A stretch of DNA of 36,721 nucleotides from a virus. Position 1 is the stretch's first letter. The number at the start of each line of letters is the position of its first letter. Below, piece after piece: positions 695-23,796 of the stretch. The translations under genes were made by a program, and so were the position numbers. The notes beneath the pieces are model-generated. The model was given only the letters and a program-made list of their open reading frames with translations. It had not been told where the DNA came from and did no database searches. Where the stretch lies: IMG/VR virus record IMGVR_UViG_3300031576_000739, positions 1-36,721 of that record. One strand, written 5' to 3'.

Positions 695-767
695 AACTTA
701 ATCAAGCTCAAGGAAAGACCTGGGATAGCATTGCGGAATGACCGCAAGCTTTCCTGGGTATTTTTTT
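695..767 (+). promoter_or_regulatory. Conserved 5' leader element, copy 1
   Basis: Bases 695-720 match 23460-23485 at 19 of 26 positions without gaps, ending in the shared block GGAAAGACC. Both copies then fold into a long two-part hairpin, followed by a U-run and immediately by the ATG of a gene (here portal at 768). No Shine-Dalgarno sequence lies between hairpin and ATG. The arrangement is that of a transcript leader with an intrinsic terminator, which could be the target of phage antitermination. That function is inferred; the duplication and fold are seen directly. Confidence 0.6.
719..767 (+). terminator. Terminator-type hairpin in portal leader
   Basis: CCTGGGA (719-725) pairs with TCCTGGG (752-758) with two G-U pairs. 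AGC (727-729) pairs with GCT (748-750). TTGCGG (731-736) pairs with CCGCAA (742-747) around an AATGA loop. A run of seven T follows at 761-767. The ATG at 738 sits in the apical loop, which is why the portal start was placed at 768. Confidence 0.65.
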
Positions 768-2543
768 ATGGATATTTTTGGTCTCGTAAAAGAGAAAATT
801 GACGACTTTTCTAGGGAAAGCATTGAAATCTCCCCAGGATATTTATTTAATCAGGCTGAAACTCTGAAAAAAATTGATTTTTACTATGGTTCTCAATTTA
901 TCACAGGTACACATGATCGAGAAGGTTTTAAAAAGTTTTTTTTCAATATCAACAAAAGCCGCGTCAATACCGCCAAAAAAGCAACTGATTTGGATACTAA
1001 AGACATTCGGGTAATTGCCGAAGAGGGGCAATCTTTTTATCCAGCTTGGTTTTTTGAAAAAGAACTAAGGCAATTTATGAAGGAGGAAAAATTTGGGGTC
1101 TTGCTTAATGAGATTGTGAGTAAAGCCCCCAGATACGGTTCGGTGGTAATTAAAGATGTAGATGGAAAACCACAAATAGTGTTGCTGCGGAATTTAGTTA
1201 ATGATCAAACGGTCAATTCGATTAAATCTTCTTCCCATGTCATCGAAAGACATTTATACAAAATTTCTGAATTCCGTGAATTAGGACAAAAAAAGGGCTG
1301 GGATAATGTTGAAGAAACCGTTGCTTTATACGAAAAGATGGGACAAGCAGAAATTTTAATGGCAGAATTTTACGGGTTCGTTCCAGAAAAAGAACTCGGA
1401 AAAAAACCCAAATCGGAAAAAATGGTAAAAACAATGTTTCTATTAACCGGAGTAGAATTTTATAACCCTACTCCTAAAAATAATGAAGAAGTCATAAAAC
1501 CATTTATACTTTTTAAGCAGGAAATTGACGAATGGCCGTATCGAGATTGGCACTGGGATAAAGAGGAAGGAAGATGGCTTGGGGTAGGAGTAGTCGAAGA
1601 TTTATTTGGAAATCAAGAAAGTGTTAATGAATTAAATAATCTTTTGCGAAAATCTCTTTATTGGTCTTCTAAAAAACTTTTCCAAACTAAAGATCAAACC
1701 GCGCCACGTAATCTATTTACCGAGGCGGAAAATGGCAGTGTATTCCAAGTTCGAGACGGCATCAATCCAGTTTCGATGGAAGAGCGCAATTTGCCCCAGT
1801 ACAATCTGGAATTTCAAAGATTGGAGAGAAACTCTGACCAAAGAGCATTTACTTTTGAAGTTAATACTGGTGAATCCTTGCCTTCAGGTACTCCCTTTAG
1901 ACTAGGGGCGATTTTGGCTAATGCGGTCAATTCTTATTACGCGTTCCAACGCGAAAATCTGGGAATGTTTATTAAAGAAATCATTGAAGATTTTATCATT
2001 CCTGGTTTTATAAAAAAGAAAAATAAAGCCCATGTTTTGAGTTTTGAAGGAGAATCAGATGAATTAGAAAAAATTGCGGGAATGATTACAAATCATCTTT
2101 TACAACAATCAATCCAAGATTTTTATACGCGCTTCGGCCGTTTTCCTACGGTTTCTGAATATCTTGAAGAACAAGCCATTGTTACGCAAAAAGTTTTGAA
2201 TAAAGGCCGAATTTATCTGGAAATTCCAGAAAAATTTTATAAGGATTTGAAATACCGAATTGACATCGTGATCACAGGAGAACAAATTGATCTGCCCAGT
2301 CAAATTGAAACTTTAACCAATCTTTTGACCTTGCTTGGCAACAATCCAGGAATTTTGCAAGACCCGCAAACTAAAATAATTCTCGAGAAAATTTTGAATA
2401 AAGCAGGAGAAAATCCTATTGGGATTATCAACGCCTTGCAGAAAAATATGTTTCAAGCAGGTGGATTGCCACAATTGCCACAGTTGGCATCCCAAACTCA
2501 ACCATCAAGTTTTAATGTACCGACAGGAGGTGGGGCGATATAA
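768..2543 (+). CDS. Phage portal protein
   Basis: 591 residues from the ATG at 768, the usual length for a portal. The portal is the dodecameric ring at the capsid vertex through which DNA enters. The assignment rests on overall composition: an alpha/beta body with KAPRYGSVVIKDVDG, a stem-like helical region around LFGNQESVNELNNLLRK, and a Gln/Pro/Gly-rich tail ending in PTGGGAI. It also rests on its place as first gene of a structural run followed by a connector-like gene. The frame stays open to an ATG at 738, but that codon is in the hairpin loop upstream. No ribosome site precedes 768, so translation may be leaderless-like or linked to the leader hairpin. Unusually, the portal lies far from terminase and capsid (21.5-25.6 kb). 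The identification is good but lacks a single diagnostic motif. Confidence 0.75.
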   Translation: MDIFGLVKEKIDDFSRESIEISPGYLFNQAETLKKIDFYYGSQFITGTHDREGFKKFFFNINKSRVNTAKKATDLDTKDIRVIAEEGQSFYPAWFFEKELRQFMKEEKFGVLLNEIVSKAPRYGSVVIKDVDGKPQIVLLRNLVNDQTVNSIKSSSHVIERHLYKISEFRELGQKKGWDNVEETVALYEKMGQAEILMAEFYGFVPEKELGKKPKSEKMVKTMFLLTGVEFYNPTPKNNEEVIKPFILFKQEIDEWPYRDWHWDKEEGRWLGVGVVEDLFGNQESVNELNNLLRKSLYWSSKKLFQTKDQTAPRNLFTEAENGSVFQVRDGINPVSMEERNLPQYNLEFQRLERNSDQRAFTFEVNTGESLPSGTPFRLGAILANAVNSYYAFQRENLGMFIKEIIEDFIIPGFIKKKNKAHVLSFEGESDELEKIAGMITNHLLQQSIQDFYTRFGRFPTVSEYLEEQAIVTQKVLNKGRIYLEIPEKFYKDLKYRIDIVITGEQIDLPSQIETLTNLLTLLGNNPGILQDPQTKIILEKILNKAGENPIGIINALQKNMFQAGGLPQLPQLASQTQPSSFNVPTGGGAI

Positions 2544-16120: not shown

Positions 16121-16308
16121 TTGGAATAATTGGAAATATAAACACCTTATATTGGTCTAGGTCTTGGTCTGGGTCTAGGTCTTGGTCTGGGTCTTGGTCT
16201 AGGTCTTGGTCTGGGTCTTGGTCTAGGTCTGGGTCTTGGTCTAGGTCTAGGTCTGGGTCTAGGTCTAGGTCTGGGTCTAGGTCTTGGTCTGGGTCTAGGT
16301 CTAAATAA
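16117..16308 (+). CDS. Ser-Arg/Ser-Trp/Ser-Gly repeat protein
   Basis: 63 residues starting at an ATG that shares ATGA with the previous stop. After a hydrophobic start (MIGIIGNINTLYW) the whole remainder is dipeptides of Ser followed by Arg, Trp or Gly, from 25 copies of the hexamer GGTCTN. The product would be disordered, basic and Trp-rich, possibly able to bind nucleic acid or form condensates. Indels of whole hexamers keep the frame. Translational coupling favours expression, but the ORF could exist simply because the repeat has no stop codons. Confidence 0.4.
   Translation: MIGIIGNINTLYWSRSWSGSRSWSGSWSRSWSGSWSRSGSWSRSRSGSRSRSGSRSWSGSRSK
16154..16303. repeat. 25 tandem copies of hexamer GGTCTN (N = A, T or G)
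   Basis: 150 bp of perfect 6-bp units in which five positions are invariant and the sixth is A, T or G but never C. The order is irregular, with ATG and AAG triplets recurring (A,T,G,A,T,G,T,A at the start; A,A,G,A,A,G near the end). The pattern suggests replication slippage plus drift confined to one codon position. Both strands are open through it: Ser-X on the + strand and Asp-X on the - strand. Confidence 0.95.
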
Positions 16309-16327
16309 TTAAAATTCAAAAACCAAC

Positions 16328-17201: not shown

Positions 17202-17229
17202 TTGACAAATAAATAGAATGGATTATGAT
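17202..17229 (+). promoter_or_regulatory. Strong sigma70-type promoter (first of two)
   Basis: Perfect TTGACA (17202-17207), a 16-nt spacer and TATGAT (17224-17229). It is followed 19 nt later by the -35 of a second promoter. Confidence 0.7.
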
Positions 17230-17248
17230 GTATCTAGTAAGTTGAAAT

Positions 17249-17277
17249 TTGACATTTTACTGGATTCCGCTTATTAT
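17249..17277 (+). promoter_or_regulatory. Strong sigma70-type promoter (second of two)
   Basis: Perfect TTGACA (17249-17254), an exact 17-nt spacer and TATTAT (17272-17277). The spacer contains CTGGATTCCGC (17260-17270), whose exact complement recurs at 17307-17317 inside the downstream hairpin. This gives an operator-like dyad that straddles the start site (about 17284). Confidence 0.8.
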
Positions 17278-17283
17278 CTATAG

Positions 17284-17340
17284 AGTCCCTAGATGGGGAT
17301 TCTCTGGCGGAATCCAGAGTCTCCATCTAGGGATTTTAAT
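17284..17340 (+). promoter_or_regulatory. 5'-terminal hairpin with alternative pairings (attenuator-like)
   Basis: CCCTAGATGG+GGA (17287-17299) pairs with TCTCCATCTAGGG (17320-17332), with one G-U. CTCTGG (17302-17307) pairs with CCAGAG (17314-17319) inside it, giving a nearly continuous stem with loop CGGAAT, followed by ATTTTAATTT. Competing pairings exist. The loop and 3' arm of the inner stem are complementary to 17260-17270, GGATTC/GAATCC can form within 17297-17315, and TAGATGGG (17290-17297) also matches CCCATCTA at 17399-17406. A transcript from 17284 would begin with this structure. Confidence 0.6.
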
Positions 17341-21582: not shown

Positions 21583-22067
21583 GACAAAAAAAGGCTCTAG
21601 AAAAATTGGCTGAAAATGGCGGAAGATCAGTAAGTCGAGCTATGGTTGAAGCAGGGTATAGTCCGATGACTGCTAAACGGCCTGATAAATTAACTAAAAG
21701 TAAAGGATTTCAAGAACTGGCAAGAGAATATTTACCAGACAATCTGCTTTTAGAAAAACATGTTGAAGGCTTAGAAGCCACTAAAATTATTATTTCTCAT
21801 ACTGAACCTGACAAAGAAGTTCCTGATTTTTTGATAAGACATAAATATCTTGAAACAGGATACAAAATCCGTCAGAAATTAGTGGACAGTGATGTTAAAG
21901 ACGAAAAAATTATCGTTAATTTGATTCAATTTAATGCCCCAGATAACACTGCCCCACAACATAGATTTCAGGCGAAGACCGTATCAGTGGCAAGTGATGG
22001 CTCATCCGGCAAAGTACAAGTCGTTGATTTTGCACCGGAAAGCGGGGAAAACAGCCCTCGCGCTTAA
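21570..22067 (+). CDS. terS: Terminase small subunit
   Basis: 165 residues. The N-terminal helix-turn-helix is typical of TerS: LRQKKALEKLAENGGRSVSR, then AMVEAGYSPMTAKRPDKL, KSKGFQEL and EYLPDNLLLEKHVEGL. TerS rings recognise the packaging site and load the large subunit. The final 45 residues are encoded in DNA that also encodes the start of TerL, including its Walker A motif. This tail is Ala/Ser/Gln-rich and probably flexible. No clear ribosome site precedes the ATG. Confidence 0.85.
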   Translation: MATLRQKKALEKLAENGGRSVSRAMVEAGYSPMTAKRPDKLTKSKGFQELAREYLPDNLLLEKHVEGLEATKIIISHTEPDKEVPDFLIRHKYLETGYKIRQKLVDSDVKDEKIIVNLIQFNAPDNTAPQHRFQAKTVSVASDGSSGKVQVVDFAPESGENSPRA

Positions 22068-23250
22068 TAAACTCATTTACGAGGCTTTCAAAAATCCAAA
22101 GAAAGTTTTTTGGTATGTTGCGCCAACTTATAGACAAGCTAAAGAGATTATTTGGCGTGATCCAGAAATGTTGCAAAAGTATTTACCGATGGAAATTGTT
22201 GATAAGAAAAACGATACGGAATTGGTGATTTATCTTAAAAATGGATCAGTCATTGGCGTCAAAGGGGCAGATGAGCCTGATAGTTTAAGAGGGCCGAATC
22301 CTTTAGGCGTAGTTTTAGATGAATTTGCTTTGATGAAAAAAGTAATATGGGAAGAGATTATTTCGCCGATCATGTTTGCTAACCCAGATGCTTGGTGCTG
22401 GTTTATAGGAACACCTAAACCAATAGGCATGCATTTTCAGCAATTACATGAACGAGCTAAAACTCTTGAGAATTGGCTTGCTTTGATGCAAACTGCTGAA
22501 CAGACCAAAATCATTCCAGAGTCTCAATTGGCGGAGGCTAAAAAAACAATGACCGAGATGGCTTATCGTCAAGAATTTTTATGCGAATGGTTCACTGAAG
22601 GCGGCGTAGTGTTTCGAGGGATTGAACGATGTTTGGAAAATAAAGTTTATGAACCAGACTTGCCTGATCCACGATTTACTTATCAGTTTGGCATTGATTT
22701 GGCGCAATTGGTTGATTGGACAGTTAAAATTGGGATTAACATTCAACGACAACGAATCGGGTATTTTGAGAGATATAATCAGCTCGATTATCGTACCCAG
22801 CGAGCAAGAATTGAAGCGGTGTTGCGGCGTTATGGTAATGCTTTGGCGAATGTAGATCAAACTGGAATTGGGGAGGTAATTACTCAAGATTTGCTGGATG
22901 CCAATCTTAATATCAATGGCATTAAATTCACCGAAGCTATAAAGCGAGACTTGATCAATAATCTTGCCATAATGATGGAACAAGGACAAATTAAATTTCC
23001 TAATATTCCCGAACTTATTGAAGAATTGCGGATTTTTGGATTTGAAATTATGCCTTCTGGACGGATTCGCTATGGAGCGCCGGAAGGCTATCACGATGAT
23101 TGTGTGATTGCTTTGGCTTTGGCGGTTTGGAATTTACCAGGAAGATTACCAACTTTTACCCAGTTATCGGCAATTGCTAAAGAGACAAACCGAATTTTAG
23201 AATCTGGAGAATATAAAGGACAGAATGTAATGGGTGGAGATCAAGAATAA
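21934..23250 (+). CDS. terL: Terminase large subunit
   Basis: 438 residues with both enzyme halves. ATPase: Walker A HRKAGKT (residues 34-40), Walker B LGVVLDE (124-130) and the coupling motif IGTPKP (158-163). RNase-H-like nuclease: Asp255 in FGIDLAQ, Asp308 in VDQTGIG, and Asp388/389 in YHDDCVIALA. It pumps DNA into the prohead and cuts it. The start lies 134 nt inside terS in another frame, and the Walker A itself is in the overlap. No alternative start downstream would keep the Walker A, so the overlap is real. It ends in TAATG shared with the next gene. Confidence 0.93.
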   Translation: MPQITLPHNIDFRRRPYQWQVMAHPAKYKSLILHRKAGKTALALNKLIYEAFKNPKKVFWYVAPTYRQAKEIIWRDPEMLQKYLPMEIVDKKNDTELVIYLKNGSVIGVKGADEPDSLRGPNPLGVVLDEFALMKKVIWEEIISPIMFANPDAWCWFIGTPKPIGMHFQQLHERAKTLENWLALMQTAEQTKIIPESQLAEAKKTMTEMAYRQEFLCEWFTEGGVVFRGIERCLENKVYEPDLPDPRFTYQFGIDLAQLVDWTVKIGINIQRQRIGYFERYNQLDYRTQRARIEAVLRRYGNALANVDQTGIGEVITQDLLDANLNINGIKFTEAIKRDLINNLAIMMEQGQIKFPNIPELIEELRIFGFEIMPSGRIRYGAPEGYHDDCVIALALAVWNLPGRLPTFTQLSAIAKETNRILESGEYKGQNVMGGDQE

Positions 23251-23438
23251 TGGAGATGAGTGCGACAGAGCGAGCGATTATTGAGCTGATCCGCGAAATG
23301 CGGCCCTTTGAGAAATTAGAAATTACCAAAGACCAGCTAGGAAGACCCGAATATTATATCCTCGTTCGTTCTCAAAAATTGGTGATTCATAAAAATCAAA
23401 AACAATATCTACGCTATGACTTGACAGTGGGAGAATAG
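23250..23438 (+). CDS. Small protein downstream of terminase
   Basis: 62 residues starting on the TAATG of terL. A helix (TERAIIELIREMRPFEKLEIT) is followed by strands (RPEYYILVRSQKLVIH). Such small proteins often follow terL in phages of this kind, but the role is unknown. Its 3' end holds the -35 of the promoter for the capsid module. Confidence 0.55.
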   Translation: MEMSATERAIIELIREMRPFEKLEITKDQLGRPEYYILVRSQKLVIHKNQKQYLRYDLTVGE

Positions 23439-23449
23439 TCTGCTAATTT
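23421..23449 (+). promoter_or_regulatory. Likely promoter of capsid module
   Basis: Perfect TTGACA (23421-23426), a 17-nt spacer and TAATTT (23444-23449) preceded by TG (extended -10 type, TGCTAATTT). The hexamer at -10 is weak, but the -35 and TG compensate. A start near 23456 would put the transcript right at the conserved leader. Confidence 0.5.
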
Positions 23450-23459
23450 TGAGATAGCA

Positions 23460-23529
23460 AACTGAATATTGCCTACGGAAAGACCGAGGAACGTTTCGCA
23501 AGAACTGCGAAAGTCCTCGGATTTTTGTT
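23460..23529 (+). promoter_or_regulatory. Conserved 5' leader element, copy 2
   Basis: Matches copy 1 (695-767) in its first 26 bases at 19 positions, including GGAAAGACC (23477-23485), then has a hairpin of the same plan but different sequence, then a U-run, then the ATG at 23530. The same element thus precedes both structural modules. No ribosome site separates hairpin and start codon. Confidence 0.6.
23484..23526 (+). terminator. Terminator-type hairpin before capsid module
   Basis: CCGAGGA (23484-23490) pairs with TCCTCGG (23514-23520) and TTTCGCA (23494-23500) with TGCGAAA (23506-23512) around AGAAC. ATTTTTG follows. It has the form of a strong intrinsic terminator, placed before rather than after the genes of the capsid module. 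Confidence 0.75.
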
Positions 23530-23796
23530 ATGGAGATAAAGCTTTCAGAGAAAGAAATAGAGGGATTGCGCCGCCTAGCTCGCGGTTATCACGGCAAAAC
23601 TCTCATAGATTATCTAAACCGATTAGTCAATGAGCTTAAAGATTTGACTACTTTGAAAGAAACTGAAGCGGAAAAACTTTTCATTGCCCATAAAGGTCGA
23701 GAAGAGGCTATAAAGCTGATTCAGGATAATTTAATAGATTTTTTAATTAAACTTAAACCTGAAATCGAAGAGCAAAATTTTGGAGAGTACGAATAA
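23530..23796 (+). CDS. Small helical protein at head of capsid module
   Basis: 88 residues, helical and highly charged (LSEKEIEGLRRLARGYHGKTLIDYLNRLVNELKDL). Proteins with this KLSEKEIEALRRLA...GKTLIDYL pattern are common and unassigned in the structural modules of environmental phages. Its ATG follows the leader hairpin directly. It abuts the next gene with no gap. Confidence 0.6.
   Translation: MEIKLSEKEIEGLRRLARGYHGKTLIDYLNRLVNELKDLTTLKETEAEKLFIAHKGREEAIKLIQDNLIDFLIKLKPEIEEQNFGEYE

Follow-up and report, generated by a model that had tools for sequence, protein, structure and literature searches.

Xp10 P7 is a small phage protein that activates late genes by bypassing the intrinsic terminators ahead of them (PMC6624301). 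By analogy, it is a close functional precedent for the element described here, since intrinsic terminators stand ahead of late genes in both (PMC6624301). However, no P7 homolog was recognized in the DNA that we analyzed, and the present terminators differ in having a short box beside each of them and a U-run that extends up to the start codon. In the pR'-tR' arrangement of lambda, which involves Q, a late promoter is followed by a terminator that has to be passed for late expression (PMC7171158), and the present element likewise places a promoter and then a terminator ahead of late genes. Lambda has one such leader of about 190 nt, whereas here the leaders measure about 50 to 90 nt and occur two or three times per genome; lambda Q loads at a promoter-proximal pause, whereas here the terminator touches the start codon and no Q homolog was seen. 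The lambda N/nut system offers a second likeness in boxB, a small purine-rich pentaloop leader hairpin comparable as a possible docking site, but here the stem has 3 bp, the loop is AAAGA or AAGAA rather than GNRNA, the hairpin overlaps a terminator arm, and neither a boxA nor an N protein was identified. In the RAT antiterminators of the LicT/BglG/SacY type, a protein-bound RNA stem overlaps the 5' arm of a terminator and excludes it. A predicted RNA stem overlaps the terminator 5' arm here as well, but RAT elements are about 30 nt long and serve sugar operons, and no such protein family was found among the window proteins scanned. The put RNA of HK022 is similar as a leader RNA that may act as an antitermination signal in cis (PMC9378689), but its targets are terminators far downstream, and put does not itself terminate transcription. 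A limited search of the open-access literature gave no description of the present element, which is real, recurrent, and apparently undescribed. Most likely, it is a late-operon conditional terminator, an established principle that here takes a new form.

Two leaders in the window

The window, meaning the whole stretch of DNA analyzed, covers all 36,721 bases of the linear IMG/VR record IMGVR_UViG_3300031576_000739, a genome judged incomplete because a DegT gene is truncated at the left end of the record. The large genes lie on the plus strand, as do all of the features of the two leaders. The first leader (copy 1) is located between the DegT gene (stop codon at 658 to 660) and the portal protein gene (768 to 2543, plus strand; 591 amino acids), which was assigned by homology and is the first gene of a portal-adaptor-tail module. 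The ORF caller had placed the portal start at 738, inside the hairpin loop of copy 1; we set it at 768 because homologs align from there. The portal gene is no longer in its usual place after the gene of the terminase large subunit (TerL) and now stands behind a block of glycosyltransferase, methyltransferase, and DegT genes. The second leader (copy 2) follows the TerL gene (21934 to 23250, plus strand) and a 62-codon gene, ORF62 (23250 to 23438, plus strand), and precedes a gene for an 88-amino-acid protein (23530 to 23796, plus strand). The latter is the first gene of the scaffold and major capsid module, and its homolog is found directly 3' of the portal gene in the relative L068. The gene order in L189, L196, and L230 is ORF62 homolog, element, portal. 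We infer that copy 2 occupies the ancestral site and copy 1 a new head, so that each structural module still opens with the element.

The two leaders, whose shared elements span 695 to 767 and 23460 to 23529, are built in the same order: putative promoter, the box GGAAAGACC, hairpin, U-run, and an ATG abutting the U-run. The putative promoter of copy 1 (657 to 685) consists of TTGACT (657 to 662), which overlaps the DegT stop codon, a 17-nt spacer, and a TG-preceded TAAATA (680 to 685) that falls below the promoter-scan threshold. The box follows as a mini stem-loop, AGG[AAAGA]CCU, at 711 to 721, with GGAAAGACC at 712 to 720, and its 3' strand is overlapped by the 5' arm of a terminator-like hairpin (718 to 759; -25.1 kcal/mol), after which the U-run ATTTTTTT (760 to 767) leads directly into the ATG at 768. 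In copy 2, the putative promoter (23421 to 23449) has TTGACA (23421 to 23426), a 17-nt spacer, and a TG-preceded TAATTT (23444 to 23449); the mini stem-loop CGG[AAAGA]CCG lies at 23476 to 23486, with GGAAAGACC at 23477 to 23485, followed by a terminator-like hairpin (23484 to 23520; -20.6 kcal/mol) and the U-run ATTTTTGTT (23521 to 23529), which abuts the ATG at 23530. As RNA, the two boxes read AGGAAAGACCU and CGGAAAGACCG. The promoters appear plausible, not strong, because the -10 hexamers are TG preceded but poor. Each copy has the sequence hallmark of an intrinsic terminator, a stable GC hairpin with a U-run immediately behind it, and the two hairpins rank third and fifth in stability among all 60-nt windows on both strands, ranks one and two being the two strands of one site at 17281. 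Searches against Rfam gave no match at the gathering score in the window or in 12 relatives.

A first-pass annotation of this DNA had reported a 26-nt block common to both regions, hairpins of differing sequence, and U-runs reaching the ATG. All three were confirmed, with 19 of 26 identities between 695 to 720 and 23460 to 23485. By itself, the 26-nt match is not rare, because 2172 ungapped pairs with at least 19 of 26 identities exist in the window. The whole 141-nt regions align with a score of 32, versus 24 for the best of 1000 dinucleotide shuffles, and the box alone scores above all 1000 shuffles. The similarity upstream of the box is not significant alone (46 and 184 of 1000 shuffles), and homology 5' of the box was not demonstrable by this test. 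The annotation had also suggested looking for further copies; across the whole window and on either strand, GGAAAGACC is found only at 712 and 23477.

Three other features of the window may be recorded here. Between 14480 and 14687 are two near-consensus promoters, TTGACA-18-TATTAT and TTGACA-17-TATACT, with AGGGGGTAT common to both before or in the -10, and this pair is likely to represent early promoters. A degenerate array of GGTCT[AGT] hexamers with 12- and 18-nt periods (16154 to 16310) reads as Ser-Arg/Trp/Gly repeats on the plus strand and as Asp-Leu/Pro/Gln repeats on the minus strand. Two promoter-like sites in tandem, with TTGACA at 17202 and 17249, stand immediately before the strongest hairpin of the record (17281 to 17340; -38.7 kcal/mol), 3' of which no clear gene begins until about 17517; the segment from 17202 to 17340 is possibly an early noncoding RNA.

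Recurrence in relatives

Searches with portal and capsid profiles provided about 220 neighborhoods, some of them overlapping. No close relatives were found in the collections searched. Single-protein searches of IMG/VR with the portal protein and TerL found nothing, and the only match to the capsid protein, in the P2-like phage L012, was spurious. An IMG/VR scan for GGAAAGACC followed after 20 to 45 nt by TTTTTNNATGGA gave 8 contigs, all chance matches, in none of which a terminator hairpin stands where a gene begins, and genome-wide regular-expression scans for terminators returned mostly coding-sequence noise.

Within the phage clade, a promoter and box followed by a GC hairpin, in most cases a U-run, and a start codon occur in this arrangement about 20 times, heading portal, adaptor, or fiber-like operons; the relatives' copies were collected by searching for that architecture, and their number alone is not evidence. 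Hairpin, U-run, and start codon are found at the portal gene in L110, L113, L171, L174, L178, L181, L189, L196, and L230, and at the adaptor gene in L174, L182, L189, L196, and L230. In L178 and L212, a hairpin and U-run also precede a small ORF, which lies ahead of the adaptor in the former and of the portal in the latter; a third such site in L230 lies before a fiber-like gene. Six genomes (the window, L189, L196, L230, L174, and L178) carry two or three copies each, all before virion genes. In most copies, at least four Us directly follow the hairpin, and the distance to the ATG is 0 to 9 nt.

The leader is not the rule at this position. Terminator-type leaders stand at 11 of 155 portal heads, and among the portal homologs of the first searches the hairpin was found only in L110 and L113. 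In most neighborhoods, no hairpin is present, and the portal gene is closely preceded by another gene or follows a near-leaderless TGGTATAAT promoter. In L021 (4001), L129 (1403), L131 (2477), L134 (2459), and L148 (2468), the portal ATG comes shortly 3' of a TGGTATAAT extended -10, which suggests that these portal mRNAs are nearly leaderless. L211 has a box and hairpin but lacks the U-run. The U-run is also missing from L208, L218, and L219, in which the box differs (CAG..CUG) and the hairpin is weaker. This boxB-like variant, CAG[GAAAA/GUGAA/GAGAA]CUG, precedes the portal start in L208 (343), L218 (1341), L219 (2053), and L222 (2023), three of the four lacking a U-run. The adaptor leader of L104 has promoter, hairpin, and ATG, also without a U-run.

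The sequence beside the hairpin differs between genomes: GGAAAGACC in the window, ACCGAAGAACGGGG in L189, ACCGAAAGACGG in L196, ACCG..TACGG in L230, AGCCAATG in L174, and CCAACGG in L178. The copies within one genome have their box in common, with shuffle P values of 0.016 or less by local alignment in each of six genomes. Such a private box suggests site-specific recognition. A mini-stem of 3 bp (CCG/CGG, CGG/CCG, or AGG/CCU) can form in the window, L189, L196, L230, L211, and L181, enclosing a loop of 4 to 9 nt that is mostly AAAGA or AAGAA, and its 3' strand either abuts the beginning of the terminator arm or extends into it. The mini-stem can form in 11 of 11 sequences versus 2.2 expected from shuffles, a comparison that overstates independence, the 11 being related. 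In the seven alignable copies, all mini-stem cells pair, and two of the three pairs have changed on both sides. The mini-stem was not demonstrated in L174, L178, L110, and L113.

A covariance model was built from the two window copies only, as the first-pass annotation had proposed, and was searched against 734 kb comprising the capsid-homolog set, L110, L113, and two whole-record pieces. The window itself was matched on both strands. The six best matches outside the window (L196 8683, L222 1961, L189 2347, L113 2417, L189 7567, and L196 2144) all map to the start of a portal or adaptor gene, with individual E values of 0.05 to 1.8; the next, in L192 and L194 (E value, 4.8), are located elsewhere. 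In 708 kb of other portal neighborhoods, the same model gave four weak matches, and no portal start was among them. What convinces in the first search is that the positions agree, not any single E value.

Promoters are excellent in several relatives. TTGACA-18-TATAAT precedes the hairpin in L110, TTGACA-17-TAGAAT in L113, and TTGACA with TGTTATAAT (portal) or TGTTATACT (adaptor) in L174, and TGCTATAAT is found 5' of the hairpin in L196, L181, and L230 (portal and third copies). In several other copies, including both in the window, a scan with TGNTATAAT gave no clear promoter beyond the level of shuffles. Elsewhere in the clade, the usual order of terminator, promoter, and near-leaderless ATG occurs at the L022 adaptor and at L219 161, and the reversed order is therefore not forced by compactness. 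Two proposals of the first-pass annotation, selection on structure and a terminator heading late operons behind a promoter, have in this way gained support well beyond the window, from the recurrence of the arrangement before portal and adaptor genes of distant relatives and from the promoters just described.

Proposed conditional termination and its alternatives

We lean toward a conditional terminator that would hold the late operons off until a trans-acting factor permits read-through. The element lies between a promoter, with a weak -10 in the window, and virion genes, and a transcript that meets a terminator at the first virion start codon would make sense if read-through were regulated. 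The element would be a leader at the 5' end of a late (virion) operon, acting as a conditional transcription gate. Transcription would start about 50 to 90 nt 5' of the ATG and take in the box before reaching an intrinsic terminator, the U-run of which stops at the start codon or a few nucleotides short of it. By default, RNA would stop at the terminator and structural mRNA would be absent. Late in infection, a trans-acting factor would bind the box, either as an RNA mini-hairpin or as DNA, RNA polymerase would read through, and the portal/capsid and adaptor/tail operons would be turned on jointly. We infer the firing of the promoter, termination, its relief, and the relieving factor; release of such terminators by antitermination is reasonable to suppose by analogy with the systems described above.

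A less probable explanation is that the hairpin is an insulator, which only ends the DegT or TerL-ORF62 transcripts while the structural operon is expressed by weak read-through or from an unrecognized promoter. Both hairpins do lie within about 110 nt of the upstream stop codon, and operons are often bordered by intrinsic terminators, as after the capsid gene of L178 (3866). However, several relatives have near-consensus promoters that lie 3' of the upstream gene but 5' of the hairpin and would be blocked, the copies of a genome have a specific box in common, and the best covariance matches fall only at portal and adaptor heads.

To a role in mRNA stability or translation we give a similarly low probability. 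The leader would then be a 5' untranslated element, such as a 5' hairpin, an RNase III site, or a protein-controlled start, with the U-rich stretch supporting initiation without a Shine-Dalgarno sequence. Many window genes have no Shine-Dalgarno sequence, and the hairpin without a U-run at the L104 adaptor fits this reading. The lack of a U-run behind the box and hairpin of L211, L208, L218, and L219 means that termination is perhaps not universal and keeps a translational or stability role alive. Against it, the Us that follow the hairpin in most copies, whatever the distance to the ATG, fit termination, and a strong hairpin 8 nt 5' of the AUG would impede initiation.

A ribosome-mediated attenuator would have a translated leader peptide, and neither window copy has an ATG from which one could start between its promoter and its hairpin; copy 2 may have a non-ATG start. 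Hairpins are reported to split the ribosome-binding site in T4 genes 25 and 38, and the GGAAAG 5' of the hairpin could in the same way be a Shine-Dalgarno sequence brought to the AUG at an effective spacing of about 10 to 13 nt in both window copies, but this is very improbable, as L189, L196, L230, L110, and L113 have no GGAG/GGAA-like run there and the sequence is not a feature of all copies.

A candidate factor and the meaning of the element

The first-pass annotation had seen no obvious Q- or N-like factor, and family scans of the window proteins, which covered some of the ORFs of an incomplete record, gave none either. The positional candidate is ORF62, a small conserved protein of 62 amino acids encoded directly upstream of copy 2, with a start that overlaps the TerL stop. 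Homologs of about 42 to 69 amino acids occur at 14 other distinct loci near the TerL-portal junction, in most of them immediately 5' of the portal gene. The AlphaFold2 model has one helix and two strands (mean pLDDT, 83), and the family has no Pfam or PHROG match and no convincing structural neighbor. Homology to ORF62 was not demonstrable for the small ORFs upstream in L110 and L113 (hhalign probability, 1.7). A first count of ORF62 against hairpin leaders gave a Fisher P value of 0.30, with a U-run test that misread hairpins extending into the U-run; four exploratory settings with changed criteria gave values from 1.3e-6 to 0.047, which are inflated by related genomes. A role for ORF62 as the regulator is speculative, and we offer it as a lead only.

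Conditional termination might, with a low probability of its own, take the form of a distinct antitermination system, in which each genome would have a private RNA box, a mini-hairpin overlapping the terminators of all its late operons, that is read by a cognate small protein, possibly of the ORF62 family. If so, box and factor would coevolve lineage by lineage. The element predicts which operons are coregulated and points to a switch for late genes in a clade of uncultivated phages. For a compact terminator/antiterminator pair, it provides a set of cis-acting variants and a candidate small protein.
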